Shown piece by piece: positions 17,668 to 46,582 of a stretch of DNA of 51,698 nucleotides. Each line of letters opens with the position of its first letter. Positions within the stretch are counted from its first letter, which is position 1. Position numbers and translations under genes: made by a program. The notes below the pieces were generated by a model. It was not told where the DNA came from. It worked only from the letters and a program-made list of their open reading frames with translations, and searched no databases. Source of the stretch: an uncultured Bacteroidia bacterium (GTDB lineage: Bacteria > Bacteroidota > Bacteroidia > Bacteroidales > UBA932); the NCBI GenBank assembly GCA_902774145.1, contig CACYHC010000011.1, positions 1 to 51,698 on the forward strand. Direction: 5' to 3'.

Positions 17668-18915
17668 ATGGAAGGACGGAGAGTAGTCATTACCGGGATG
17701 GGCACGGTTTCTTGCCTGGGGAACGATATCAACACATTCTGGCAGAACCTGGTGGACGGGGTCTGCGGCATCGACTTCATCACGGAGTTCGACACGGACG
17801 CCCTGCCCGTCAAGATCGGCGGGAAGGTGCGCGGATTCGACCCCCTGGACTTCGGTATGGACAAGCCCTTCATCCGCAAACAGGACCCCTTCACGATTTA
17901 CGCGATGGCCGCCGCCTGGCAGGCGTTCCGCGATGCGGGCCTCACTTCCGGGACGAACATCGACCCGTTCCGCCTGGGCGTCTATATCGGCTCCGGCGTG
18001 GGCGGTTTCACCGTCGCGCACCGGGAAATCAACAAGATGTACGACGACCCGTCCGGCCGCTGGCTCTCCCCGATGTTCATCCCGACGATGATTTCGAACA
18101 TCGCCAGCGGACAGGTGGCCATCAAGTTCGAAGCGAAGGGCCCCTGCATCGACATCGTCACCGCCTGCGCCACTTCCACGCATTCCATCGGCGAGGCCTA
18201 CCGGGCGGTCAAGCACGGGTACGCCGACGCCATCGCCGCGGGCGGCACGGACAACTGCACCATTCCGCTCGGACTGGTCGGCTTCGGCAACCTGAAGGCC
18301 CTGTCCCGGGCGACGGACCCCAAATACGCTTCCCTGCCCTTCAACCTGAACCGCGGCGGCTTCGTAATGGCCGACGGCGCGTCCGTCCTGATCGTCGAAG
18401 AATACGAACACGCCAAGGCGCGCGGCGCGAAGATTTACGCCGAAATGGTGGGCTACGGCAGCACCTGCGACGCTTATCACTCCACGGCACCCCGGCCCGA
18501 CGGCAGCACCCAGGCGCGCTGCATCACCGACGCCTGCGAAGAAGCGCGCTTCGACCCCGCGGCGGACACGGTCTATATCAACGCGCACGGCACCGGCACG
18601 AAACTCAACGACGTCGCCGAGACGCTCGCCTACAAGCTGGCCTTCGGCGATTTCGCCTACCGCTGCCATATTTCTTCCACGAAATCGATGCACGGACATA
18701 TGCTCGGGGCCACCGGCGCCACGGAAGCTATTGCGGCGATCCTTGCGCTGCGCGACGGCATTGTCCCGCCGACCATCAACCTCGACACGCCTGACCCGGA
18801 GTGCGACCTGGACTACACGCCCAACAAGGCCGTCCGCGCCGGCATCACCCTCTCCCTGAGCGACTCCTTCGGCTTCGGCGGGCATAACGCCTGTCTGGCA
18901 TTCAGGAAGGCCTGA
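17668..18915 (+). CDS. fabF: 3-oxoacyl-[acyl-carrier-protein] synthase, FabF type
   Basis: 415 residues of the condensing-enzyme family, which elongates acyl-ACP with malonyl-ACP. The catalytic triad is present: Cys167 in VTACATSTH, His307 in NAHGTGT and His344 in KSMHGHMLGA. Lys339 and the C-terminal FGFGGHN loop are also kept. The residue between Met and Gly of the third motif is His342, where FabF usually has Thr. No acpP or other fab gene is adjacent, so a role outside housekeeping synthesis is possible. The last codons form the left arm of a perfect hairpin, and the stop codon lies inside the first unit of an 85-bp repeat. Confidence 0.9.
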   Translation: MEGRRVVITGMGTVSCLGNDINTFWQNLVDGVCGIDFITEFDTDALPVKIGGKVRGFDPLDFGMDKPFIRKQDPFTIYAMAAAWQAFRDAGLTSGTNIDPFRLGVYIGSGVGGFTVAHREINKMYDDPSGRWLSPMFIPTMISNIASGQVAIKFEAKGPCIDIVTACATSTHSIGEAYRAVKHGYADAIAAGGTDNCTIPLGLVGFGNLKALSRATDPKYASLPFNLNRGGFVMADGASVLIVEEYEHAKARGAKIYAEMVGYGSTCDAYHSTAPRPDGSTQARCITDACEEARFDPAADTVYINAHGTGTKLNDVAETLAYKLAFGDFAYRCHISSTKSMHGHMLGATGATEAIAAILALRDGIVPPTINLDTPDPECDLDYTPNKAVRAGITLSLSDSFGFGGHNACLAFRKA

Positions 18916-18925
18916 ATGCCAGACA
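18892..18925 (+). terminator. Perfect 15-bp hairpin across the fabF stop codon
   Basis: TGTCTGGCATTCAGG (18892-18906) pairs perfectly with CCTGAATGCCAGACA (18911-18925) across an AAGG loop. The left arm is fabF coding sequence and the right arm contains the stop codon. No U-run follows, so it is not a textbook intrinsic terminator. It could still protect the 3' end or help termination. Confidence 0.65.
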
Positions 18926-19156
18926 TTATTATTCATTAGGGGAAGGTTCCCCTAAGACCCCTCTGTCGCGGCTCTGCCGCTCCGAATCCTGCGCGCCTGA
19001 ATGCCAGACATTATTATTCATTAGGGGAAGGTTCCCCTAAGACCCCTCTGTCGCGGCTCTGCCGCTCCGAATCCTGCGCGCCTAAACGCCAGACATTATT
19101 ATTCATTAGGGGAAGGTTCCCCTAAGACCCCTCTGTCGCGGCTCTGCCGCTCCGAA
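18911..19156. repeat. Three tandem copies of an 85-bp stem-loop repeat
   Basis: Units lie at 18911-18995, 18996-19080 and 19081-19156 (the last truncated at 76 bp). Units 1 and 2 are identical by eye; unit 3 differs at two positions (4 and 7). Each unit holds a 9-bp inverted repeat TTAGGGGAA-GG-TTCCCCTAA (18936-18955, 19021-19040, 19106-19125) and a GCGGC-TCT-GCCGC hairpin (18968-18980, 19053-19065, 19138-19150). The first 15 bases of units 1 and 2 are the reverse complement of the fabF 3' coding end. At 85 bp the unit is not a multiple of three, so it is not a coding repeat. It separates the convergent fabF and lipoprotein genes. Confidence 0.95.
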
Positions 19157-19189
19157 CGGATTGTCGCCCTTTGACATTCCCTGGCGAAT

Positions 19190-20728
19190 TCAATTAAGGC
19201 TGATGTTCACCCTTACCACCGAAATCGTTCCTGCATTGCAGGTCCAACTCTTGGAAACCTCCCTTGTAGCGAGAAGCTGATTATCCTGATCAAAGAACTC
19301 CACCTTCAAATAACTGAATGATTGCGGACTGATGGCCAGGACAACTTCATTATCCCCGTCATTATCGTACAAGACGGCGGAATTATAAAACAGGCCCGGA
19401 AAACCGCCCTGATCCCCAAAGGTATAATCCTGCATAGGGCCATACAAACAGTATCCGGCGAGTTGCGCATCGCTGTTGACGGTTACGCGAACCCAGGAAA
19501 AACCACTACTGGCAATAATATCCAGGAATCCCGTCAAGCAAGACAACTGCACTTCCGCTGACTGCTGCGTATACTCACAATAGCCATAAAAAGCGCAGGA
19601 ACGGTCAATAACCGTCGACGGGAAATCTACGGCTACGCAACCTTCCGTCCAAGACACATTGTCTGCAGGGTAGCCCAAATAATAACGTTGTGCAGCAGGA
19701 ACGGCGATTTCGCGCGATTCCGGGATTGTATAAATCTTATCGTTAATCCAGATTTCCGTCCCTGCGGGGATGGGATTATCGGACATTTGATCGGAAAAAG
19801 AACTTTTGGTCGTACTCTCAGCACCGGAATAAATGGAATTGAGAATCTTGAGAATCTGCTTCTCGGGCTCATATTCCTCCCAATCCGTAAGGCCTTCGTC
19901 GATACTATCCAACATTCCGAAAACGGAACGCTTGACAACGATCGGAGCGTCCATAACCTTGACGGCATATCGGTCAGCCGTATAGAGCGTAGCGGTCAAC
20001 CCCTCCGCGTGAGCGTGCGGCAGCATCGCGGCGAAGTAGTTTGTACCAGGAACGAAACCGCCTTCAGGGGCCTTCACGACAACGGAATCAACGGGTTCGG
20101 CGAAATCAAGAATTTGTGGTTTATTATCTTCGCCGAAGCTAAGCTGGACCTTGCCTGACATCGGGCTGCCGTCGTTAGATCGGAAAACAATCCTCCTAAT
20201 GCCTTCACGCGTTACGCTGAACCGCGCGCCGCCGCAGACATTCCAGAAAGAAAGCAGGAAATTGTTGCTCCTTGCAACAGCGGGGAAGAACTTGTCGGCA
20301 AAACCGTTGGCCTTCCCTTCCTGGATACACGGCAATGACAGGGTAATACTTTGTCCGTCACAACTATTCTCAGCATCATAAGGATAAGCAGCCCAATATC
20401 CGGGGAAAGCGCCTTCTTGTTCTATAACACCGATGAGCACATTCCCGACAAAACTCACTACGCCCTGCGGCTGGGTATTGGTTGAAACGAATCTGGCGGA
20501 CACGTCGTTACCGATAAAGACATTGATTTCCTCATTCGCGCTCCACCAGATGCTGGTTCCGTCATCCTGCAGTACAGTCCTGGAATCTGTATCCTTCTCA
20601 TCAGCCCAATCGGCGGTGAACTCCATCTTCGTTCCGGGCTTCAACAGCCCGGAGTCTTCCGTCCCCCTCGCACAAGAGAGGCAAGCCATTGCCACCGCAG
20701 CGGCATACAACAAGGATTTCGTTCTCAT
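19190..20728 (-). CDS. Secreted lipoprotein, fimbrillin-like
   Basis: 512 residues. A signal peptide ends in ACLSC (Cys19), a loose Bacteroidota lipobox. The segment at ~33-85 (EFTADWADEKDTDSRTVLQD, then SIWWSANEEINVF) resembles the N-terminal beta-domain of Bacteroidota fimbrillin/Mfa-like lipoproteins; the rest is beta-rich and unrecognised. It is probably exposed at the cell surface. GC is low: 25/60 at 19261-19320 and 24/60 at 19801-19860, against 40/60 at 18241-18300 in fabF and 32/60 at 21121-21180 in prfA. The start overlaps the prfA stop by 1 nt (TAATG), and the gene ends the long minus-strand run just before the repeat array. The family call is tentative. Confidence 0.65.
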   Translation of the reverse strand: MRTKSLLYAAAVAMACLSCARGTEDSGLLKPGTKMEFTADWADEKDTDSRTVLQDDGTSIWWSANEEINVFIGNDVSARFVSTNTQPQGVVSFVGNVLIGVIEQEGAFPGYWAAYPYDAENSCDGQSITLSLPCIQEGKANGFADKFFPAVARSNNFLLSFWNVCGGARFSVTREGIRRIVFRSNDGSPMSGKVQLSFGEDNKPQILDFAEPVDSVVVKAPEGGFVPGTNYFAAMLPHAHAEGLTATLYTADRYAVKVMDAPIVVKRSVFGMLDSIDEGLTDWEEYEPEKQILKILNSIYSGAESTTKSSFSDQMSDNPIPAGTEIWINDKIYTIPESREIAVPAAQRYYLGYPADNVSWTEGCVAVDFPSTVIDRSCAFYGYCEYTQQSAEVQLSCLTGFLDIIASSGFSWVRVTVNSDAQLAGYCLYGPMQDYTFGDQGGFPGLFYNSAVLYDNDGDNEVVLAISPQSFSYLKVEFFDQDNQLLATREVSKSWTCNAGTISVVRVNISLN

Positions 20729-35500: not shown

Positions 35501-35716
35501 TCACTTCGTTACCCGCTCGCAGGCGTCGCAATCACTGCAAGGACGAGGATGAAAGGATGCATCCTCATCCTTGAAACAGCGGATTCCCCGCTTGCGCATC
35601 TCCTCGTTACTGCCTACATCGAACTTCGGGAACTCCTTGCGCCTCAGCAGAATATTGAAGCACAACAGCAGCACGCAAAGCGCCACGATGAGAATAGACA
35701 GTATAATCAGCTTCAT
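35501..35716 (-). CDS. Small Cys-rich single-span membrane protein
   Basis: 71 residues. Residues 2-23 form one membrane span (with Cys14 and Cys19). The soluble remainder contains a basic patch (RRK, MRKRGIRC), Cys47 and a CxxCxxC cluster at Cys60, Cys63 and Cys66 close to the C-terminus. A tail like this could bind a metal or an Fe-S centre, but that is inference. I recall similar short membrane proteins in Bacteroidota genomes but know no function. It is 3 nt after prs and 38 nt before der, both housekeeping genes. Confidence 0.75.
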   Translation of the reverse strand: MKLIILSILIVALCVLLLCFNILLRRKEFPKFDVGSNEEMRKRGIRCFKDEDASFHPRPCSDCDACERVTK

Positions 35717-45163: not shown

Positions 45164-46527
45164 TGGATATAGAAAATCTGGTCGCAGCGCAGCGGGCGTA
45201 TTATGCGAGCGGGGAGACGAGGGAGCTGAAGTTCCGGAAGGAGCAGTTGCGGAAGCTGCGTGCGGCGCTGTCCAAGTGGGAGCAGCCGCTTTGCGATGCG
45301 CTGTGGACGGACCTGCACAAGGGGCCGGAGGAGGCGTTCCTGACGGAGTTCGGGTTATTGTACGGAGAAATCGGAGAGGCGCTGAAGCATTTGGAGCGCT
45401 GGACGCTGCGGCGGCGCAAACCCACGCCGCTGACGCTCTTTCCGTCGCGCACCTACCTGATGCGCGAGCCGCTGGGCTGCAGCCTGATCATTGCGCCGTG
45501 GAATTATCCGGTGCAGTTGTTGCTGAGCCCGCTGGTGGGCGCCATCGCCGCGGGATGTACCGCTATCCTGAAGCCCTCCCCCTATGTGCCGGCGGTTTCT
45601 TCCTTGCTGGCGCAGATGATTGCCGAAACCTTTGCGGAGCGTTATATCGCCGTTGTCCTGGGGAACCGGGAAGTGAACACCGCGCTGCTTGCGCAGCGTT
45701 TCGATGTCGTGTTCTTCACCGGGAGTCCGGCGCTCGGGAAGGTGGTGATGGCCGCGCAGGCGAAGTACCTCACGCCACTGGTGCTGGAGCTGGGCGGCAA
45801 GAGCCCCTGTATCGTGGACAAGGACGCGGACCTGCGGATGGCAGCCCGGCGCATTGCCTGGGGGAAGTGCCTCAACAGCGGCCAGACCTGCATCGCGCCC
45901 GATTACCTGTTCCTGCACGAAGACATCAAGGAGGCGTTTATCGCGGCCTTCCAAGAGGCGCTCGCGGCGCTTTATCCGGAAGGGACGGAACATTCGCCGC
46001 ATTATGTGCACCTGGTGCGCGACCTTGCGTTCGAGCGGGTAACGGGCTACCTGAAGGACGGCACCGTGGTGGCCGGCGGGCGTTATGATGCGTCTACGCG
46101 CTGGATGGAACCGACGCTACTGGACGGGGTGAGCCCTGATGCACCCGTGATGCAGGAAGAGATTTTCGGCCCGGTGTTTCCGATACTGACCTTCCGGGAA
46201 CGCGACGAAGTCGTTTCCTTCGTGAACGCGCGCGAAAAGCCGCTGGCCTTCTATTATTTCGGACGGCGGCGCCACGGGCTGGAGATGCTCGCCCGGACCA
46301 CTTCCGGCGGAGCCTGCATCAACGATGTGATTATGCACGTAGCCAACGGCAAGGTACCCTTCGGCGGCGTGGGGAATTCCGGCATGGGCAGTTACCACGG
46401 CGAGCGCAGTTTCCTGGCGTTCAGCCACGAGCGCACCGTACTGGATACGCCAGCGCGGCCCGACCCGGGCTTCCGCTATATGCCCTACCGGCTGATCGGC
46501 CTGGCCCGGCGGATGATGAAGCGATAA
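45160..46527 (+). CDS. Aldehyde dehydrogenase, class-3 type
   Basis: 455 residues. ALDH motifs are Asn115 in APWNYP, Glu210 in LELGGKSP and the nucleophile Cys244 in NSGQTCIAPDY. The short N-terminus and the end (VPFGGVGNSGMGSYHG) place it with class-3, fatty or aromatic aldehyde dehydrogenases. It oxidises aldehydes with NAD(P). ATGs at 45160 and 45163 are both possible. It is translationally linked to the DPP III gene, though no shared pathway is obvious, and is followed by a bidirectional terminator. Confidence 0.92.
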   Translation: MMDIENLVAAQRAYYASGETRELKFRKEQLRKLRAALSKWEQPLCDALWTDLHKGPEEAFLTEFGLLYGEIGEALKHLERWTLRRRKPTPLTLFPSRTYLMREPLGCSLIIAPWNYPVQLLLSPLVGAIAAGCTAILKPSPYVPAVSSLLAQMIAETFAERYIAVVLGNREVNTALLAQRFDVVFFTGSPALGKVVMAAQAKYLTPLVLELGGKSPCIVDKDADLRMAARRIAWGKCLNSGQTCIAPDYLFLHEDIKEAFIAAFQEALAALYPEGTEHSPHYVHLVRDLAFERVTGYLKDGTVVAGGRYDASTRWMEPTLLDGVSPDAPVMQEEIFGPVFPILTFRERDEVVSFVNAREKPLAFYYFGRRRHGLEMLARTTSGGACINDVIMHVANGKVPFGGVGNSGMGSYHGERSFLAFSHERTVLDTPARPDPGFRYMPYRLIGLARRMMKR

Positions 46528-46563
46528 AAAAACAGCGCAGACGGTTGCCTGCGCTGATTTTTT
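46526..46563. terminator. Bidirectional intrinsic terminator between ALDH and SusD
   Basis: CAGCGCAG (46533-46540) and CTGCGCTG (46549-46556) form a perfect 8-bp stem with an 8-nt loop. An A-run lies to the left (46526-46532) and a T-run to the right (46558-46563), so it can stop transcription from both convergent genes. Confidence 0.85.
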
Positions 46564-46582
46564 ATCCGAAAAGTCGAATAGA

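Follow-up and report, generated by a model that had tools for sequence, protein, structure and literature searches.

We propose that the tandem array downstream of fabF is probably an amplified insertion of a palindromic element interspersed through the genus, with an arm produced by fold-back (template-switch) synthesis. The window, i.e., the whole stretch of 51,698 nucleotides analysed here, comes from contig 11 of a 2.23-Mb draft genome (G000, hereafter the own genome) and holds a single array at 18910–19156 (TRF: period 85, 2.9 copies, 98% matches). Each unit consists of A′ (the host gene end, copied in inverted form), a segment X and a conserved C-rich core of ~45 nt, in this order. The features are listed below; G276 and G233 are sister species and R1 is a model of the core.

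17680–18915, + strand: fabF coding sequence including the stop (18913–18915), beta-ketoacyl synthase (PF00109, PF02801); its 3′ end supplies arm A
18892–18906, + strand: arm A, fabF codons pairing with A′ of units 1 and 2 (100% complementary arms)
18911–18925, + strand: A′ of unit 1, in which the fabF end is copied in inverted form and which holds the fabF stop (complementarity); 4 bases longer than in G276 and G233
18926–18935, + strand: X of unit 1, T-rich spacer with a terminator-like tail (terminator pattern scan)
18938–18991, + strand: core of unit 1, C-rich conserved element (model R1, E 1.7e-10)
18996–19010, + strand: A′ of unit 2, identical to that of unit 1 (complementary arms)
19023–19076, + strand: core of unit 2 (model R1, E 1.7e-10)
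19081–19095, + strand: A′ of unit 3, reading CCTAAACGCCAGACA and differing at two positions from that of units 1 and 2 (sequence comparison)
19108–19161, + strand: core of unit 3 (model R1, E 3.4e-10); the TRF repeat match ends at 19156
19190–20728, − strand: convergent gene of 512 aa without a Pfam match (ORF, Pfam search); its ortholog lies 3′ of the stub in G233

As assembled in the draft genome, the units measure 85, 85 and 76 bp and start at 18910, 18995 and 19080, units 1 and 2 being identical across 85 bp. The 15 nt of fabF at 18892–18906 are 100% complementary to 18911–18925 across a 4-nt loop (AAGG) and equally to 18996–19010 in unit 2, with which arm A could possibly pair instead of unit 1. 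The final fabF codon is GCC (18910–18912) and the stop TGA (18913–18915). An earlier note on this DNA had described the 85/85/76 tandem units, the exact complementarity to fabF of the first 15 bases (from 18911) of units 1 and 2, and the codon and stop bases at the unit start; TRF and repeat comparison bear it out on these points. The inner palindromes of the unit are TTAGGGGAAGGTTCCCCTAA and GCGGC-TCT-GCCGC. The hairpin at the fabF end (18885–18935) has a predicted energy of −27.6 kcal/mol, equalled by none of 200 shuffles, and the fold of the 291-nt region has a z score of −5.9. The array lies between fabF (+) and the convergent 512-aa gene (−); a signal-like start was the sole basis for calling the latter a lipoprotein, and its protein has no Pfam match.

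Searching the own genome for the unit with up to 3 mismatches returned three matches, all within the array, and model R1 likewise matched the three array copies only. Since scattered copies are absent from this genome, the amplification itself is local, consistent with the tandem amplification at fabF that had been suggested. By DNA similarity search the 85-bp unit was absent from 60 relatives (G276 and G233 not among them).

The core belongs to a family dispersed in the genus. A pattern for its C-rich half matched 27 of 300 congeners, and the reversed control pattern was not among the matches listed in the same search. Model R1 was built from 28 pattern-found sequences, one of them from the window, and is thus partly self-trained for the window cores. 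It found the core in 61 of 120 congeners (≥90% completeness), with up to 30 matches per genome, and in an order-wide sample of 119 genomes (112 genera) it matched the own genome alone; stricter genome filters applied to both sets. An exact core pattern retrieved 61 stretches from the GTDB collection, 59 of them labelled Bacteroidales or Bacteroidia and two Selenomonadales/Clostridia; the last two (L226, L248) are short core-bearing contigs that are possibly misbinned Bacteroidales DNA. Many of the congeners' records in this collection are from ruminant stomachs. Cores follow tRNAs or genes, or lie in frame within enzyme genes, and tandem arrays of arm plus core occur elsewhere (G089 contig 7, G275 contigs 19 and 30, G008 contig 57). 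L129, L132, L136, L139, L143, L146–L149 and L152–L154 carry a core variant lengthened by an additional CCCCC...GGGGGACT block ahead of GAGGGGCGTTCCCCTC, and several of these are in frame within a gene. The orientation of the core at one convergent gene pair differs between species: in L107 it is opposite to that in L044, L049, L053, L064 and L097.

The family was not recognised as a known RNA or phage sequence. Rfam returned sub-threshold matches only for window positions 18500–19500 and tRNA matches only for 20 related loci, i.e., no RNA family reached the gathering score in either set. The phage search gave no exact match and four loose ones, of which the three that were scored look like chance.

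The 5′ neighbour of many cores is an inverted copy of the adjacent host DNA, and the DNA copied may be the 3′ end of a tRNA together with its terminator, the end of a gene or a gene's interior. With a loop of 3–8 nt and a score of at least 10 required, 56 of 91 elements had such a copy 5′ of the core, versus 10 of 1820 control windows (same loci, >260 nt distant), and 8 of 91 had one 3′ of it. The loops of the 56 are mostly of 3–5 nt (53/56): 4 nt in 30, 3 in 15, 5 in 8, 6 in 2 and 7 in 1. Additional elements drawn from the GTDB collection behaved alike (19 of 31, three of the 31 being loose viral matches, versus 2 of 620 controls). When 125 elements were pooled, the repeat accompanied 24 of the 25 with an upstream tRNA and 55 of the 100 without; counted once per site cluster, it was present in 42/72. 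The 45 non-tRNA elements that show no repeat at this threshold may have decayed or may never have had one. For 47 of the 55 that do, an ORF of 120 codons or more, on either strand and possibly spurious in some cases, contains the host arm. A direct repeat of an arm segment lies 3′ of the core in 19 of 123 elements (12/72 site clusters) versus 3 of 1230 mismatched pairs. These element counts take in orthologous sites and array copies, except where site clusters are counted. A set of 63 elements from 60 stretches, picked from the listed model matches mostly by score, was inspected.

Eleven proteins were chosen from ORFs spanning a core, and ten were recognised: TatD, TsaB, MutY, DnaG, HemW, PurH, PurL, ArgD and MnmA by NCBIfam, and RlmN by Pfam. 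The protein of L129 had no NCBIfam match. DnaG, HemW, PurL and ArgD score below the curated cut-off, partly because of truncated loci. The core of MutY and DnaG sits beyond the matched domain, and the second arm of HemW (L144) may belong to the host sequence and not to an insert. Elements in enzyme genes are often antisense to them. Two genes can be read with and without the element. PurL carries 33 additional residues in G033 and 30 in G114 before the conserved RWLLMFKNETHNHP, including an inverted copy of its own DNA, whereas in all 11 other loci this stretch is short and has no A′. TsaB has an insert before IVPMLDARRMEVY in G061 and G005; of the 23 other loci, 18 have neither insert nor A′ and five were unreadable by the pattern used.

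At fabF, comparison with the sister species shows that unit number varies. FabF of the window shares 93% identity with that of G276 and 91% with that of G233, and by fabF DNA the three species are about equidistant (1046, 1040 and 1041 of 1230 positions identical). G276 has two 82-bp units and additional arm copies after fabF. In G233 (locus L009) there are the arm and a decayed stub, and the next gene corresponds to the convergent one of the window. The fabF hairpin measures 15 bp in the window, 11 in G276 and 9 in G233, the window A′ having four extra fabF-complementary bases that both sisters lack. There is also a paired substitution, GCA in fabF and TGC in A′ in the window versus GCG and CGC in both sisters. 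Because unit 3 keeps the sister-like C, this paired change probably arose after the array existed, and units 1 and 2, being identical, were probably duplicated later still.

Arm matching is kept at some sites and lost at others. In 10 selected comparisons, two of which share the window, 15 arm columns differed: nine had changed on both sides and stayed paired, and six had changed on one side. Matched changes occurred in PurL (3/4 columns), TatD, fabF, one MutY pair and tRNA-Leu, and one-sided changes in PurH, L126/L133, L104/L105 and another MutY pair. The cross-species comparison covered 18 chosen groups, with L015 missing. At the orthologous tRNA of L094, L127 and L135, the whole terminator stem differs between species yet is perfectly paired.

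Across 30 fabF loci, a stop-straddling repeat (score ≥9) was present in 6/6 with the core and 6/24 without; one of these core-less six is the stub of L009. By eye, L020, L028 and L029 show other C-rich palindromic sequences after fabF, again with the fabF end copied in inverted form; in L029 they make up a partial array. Inverted host copying may therefore not be tied to this particular core. A genome-wide habit of stop-overlapping inverted repeats seems an unlikely source of the fabF arm: among 34 greedily picked ORFs of the window, two had a repeat across the stop (ends 35552 and 46527). The pick contained an antisense ORF instead of fabF, which is thus outside the 34. The first, at 35538–35572, is an inverted repeat (CAAGGACGAGGATG / CATCCTCATCCTTG) across the predicted stop at the ORF end 35552, with no core match; the other, at 46523–46565, is a hairpin (GATAAAAAAACAGCGCAG / CTGCGCTGATTTTTTATC) between convergent ORFs and resembles an ordinary bidirectional terminator.

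In the scheme that we favour, each copy is A′–X–core, and the core is presumably the mobile part, judging by its dispersion alone. At or after insertion, the host 3′ end would fold back on itself with a loop of 3–5 nt, and a polymerase would extend the folded end by template-switch or snap-back synthesis, so that A′ would repeat in inverted form the host DNA immediately 5′ of it, here the end of fabF. Later rounds could lengthen the arms and match them again, and the A′–X–core block at fabF may have been multiplied by slippage or by unequal recombination between direct repeats. The loop size, the one-sidedness, the match to the host and the A′-free empty genes all fit fold-back synthesis. More tentatively, integration itself might involve fold-back priming that copies the neighbouring host strand, and each insertion would then bring a hairpin matched to its host. 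Such a mobile palindromic element could insert in frame into essential enzyme genes, its arm afterwards being kept matched by repeated template switching.

A different order of events is that hairpins such as terminators or quasi-palindromes come first and the core inserts into them, A–A′ being the target and not the product. It would explain why the repeat is nearly constant beside tRNAs (24/25), where terminator hairpins are expected, and why the repeat occurs at some fabF loci that lack this core; the direct arm-segment repeats flanking the core in 12/72 site clusters look like a target duplication. However, the element-free PurL and TsaB genes have no A′, perfect hairpins of 10–19 bp are unexpected inside enzyme genes, and one is present in 36 of the 63 non-tRNA elements whose core is traversed by an ORF (either strand, some spurious). 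We therefore consider this order unlikely.

Selection on RNA structure, in which the hairpins would be terminators or mRNA stabilisers with arms kept matched by compensatory change, draws on the stable fold and T-rich tail at fabF and on the two-sided changes in 9 of 15 differing columns. We judge it improbable, since enzyme genes harbour such elements too, also in antisense, and the terminator scan expects 0.7 matches by chance. That scan found a single match in the region, a 15-bp stem followed by TTATTATTCA at 18892–18925, so the termination raised by the earlier note has a possible structure. The hairpin and TTATTATTCA may end fabF transcription; such a role, if present, would be secondary. 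A regulatory switch between the two pairings, as raised by the earlier note, would be speculative, and the same architecture in enzyme genes, often antisense, argues that regulation is not why it exists. In our view, the array is an insertion that fabF tolerates and may use as its 3′ end; we do not regard it as an evolved control system.

The earlier note's own reading, local amplification of fabF's 3′-end/terminator block with no mobile element involved, accords with every core copy of the own genome lying in this array. It had named a unit scattered with a different 5′ end as the finding that would refute it, and in relatives the core half is dispersed over unrelated loci with other, varied 5′ arms, which contradicts a unit made merely of the fabF end and renders this reading very improbable. 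An assembly or amplification artefact, with chimeric inverted copies and a wrong copy number, might be suspected from draft assemblies and the identity of units 1 and 2; it is scarcely credible given the same insertions with diverged arms in different species (PurL in G033/G114, TsaB in G061/G005) and the fabF array of G276's own.

The fold-back insertion proposed here can be compared with several known systems. The Rickettsia palindromic elements are likewise short palindromic repeats found in frame in conserved-protein genes as well as between genes (PMC3733652); this trait is seen in the congeners, the window copy lying at a gene end. They differ in sequence and host, the likeness is one of description, and a host-matched inverted arm is not mentioned in the part of that source available to us. 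REP/REPIN sequences, the GTAG- or CGTC-tagged repeats, are also small, GC-rich dispersed hairpins, often downstream of genes (PMC3733652, PMC6006769, as far as consulted). The same part of PMC3733652 states that REPs may occur in frame within genes and that Y1 enzymes are associated with GTAG REPs, and some Bacteroidetes Y1 genes are flanked by atypical structures, according to the part of PMC6006769 seen. Many dispersed copies, as in REPs, occur in the congeners (up to 30), the own genome having just the three array copies. The core differs in its host-copied arm and in its tags: no unpaired GTAG/CGTC stands at the hairpin end in the core alignment and its flanks, where mostly ACT or ATT precedes, and a YGTC (TGTC in the window) lies 3′ within the core, away from the hairpin foot. 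Without these tags, we did not file it as a REP.

A mobilising Y1 enzyme (RAYT) was also considered. Y1_Tnp is present in 57/61 core-bearing versus 37/59 core-free congeners (Fisher 4e-5, kinship not controlled), a tally that combines two lists on the assumption of the same 120 genomes, the own genome being an exception. Cores lie near 3 of 39 Y1 loci and flank none on both sides, so there is no clear Y1 gene between cores as in RAYT-linked REPs, and neither the own genome nor G276 has a Y1 match; a Y1 enzyme is at most a candidate for moving the core.

A MITE has terminal inverted repeats, whereas the single 5′ arm of this element matches the host and not the element's other end; the direct arm-segment repeats in 12/72 site clusters could correspond to a MITE's short target duplication. 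An intrinsic (rho-independent) terminator is resembled by the hairpin and T-rich tract after fabF, but the same architecture occurs inside genes and antisense to them, with a stem that copies coding sequence. In the open-access literature searched, we found no description of inverted host copies beside bacterial palindromic repeats. If fold-back copying is part of insertion, it would be an integration process for small bacterial elements of which we likewise found no description. Template switching is described, in the part of PMC8794818 consulted, as creating reverse-complement copies that form perfect stems and as repairing stems by paired changes. Such quasipalindrome correction is a mutation process of replication; here it would recur on one side of a dispersed element. 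PurL, TsaB and fabF with and without the core are natural before-and-after states in which the origin of a stem by template switching could be read directly. Co-varying stems, which are commonly read as proof of a functional RNA, can arise in coding sequence beside a dispersed element.
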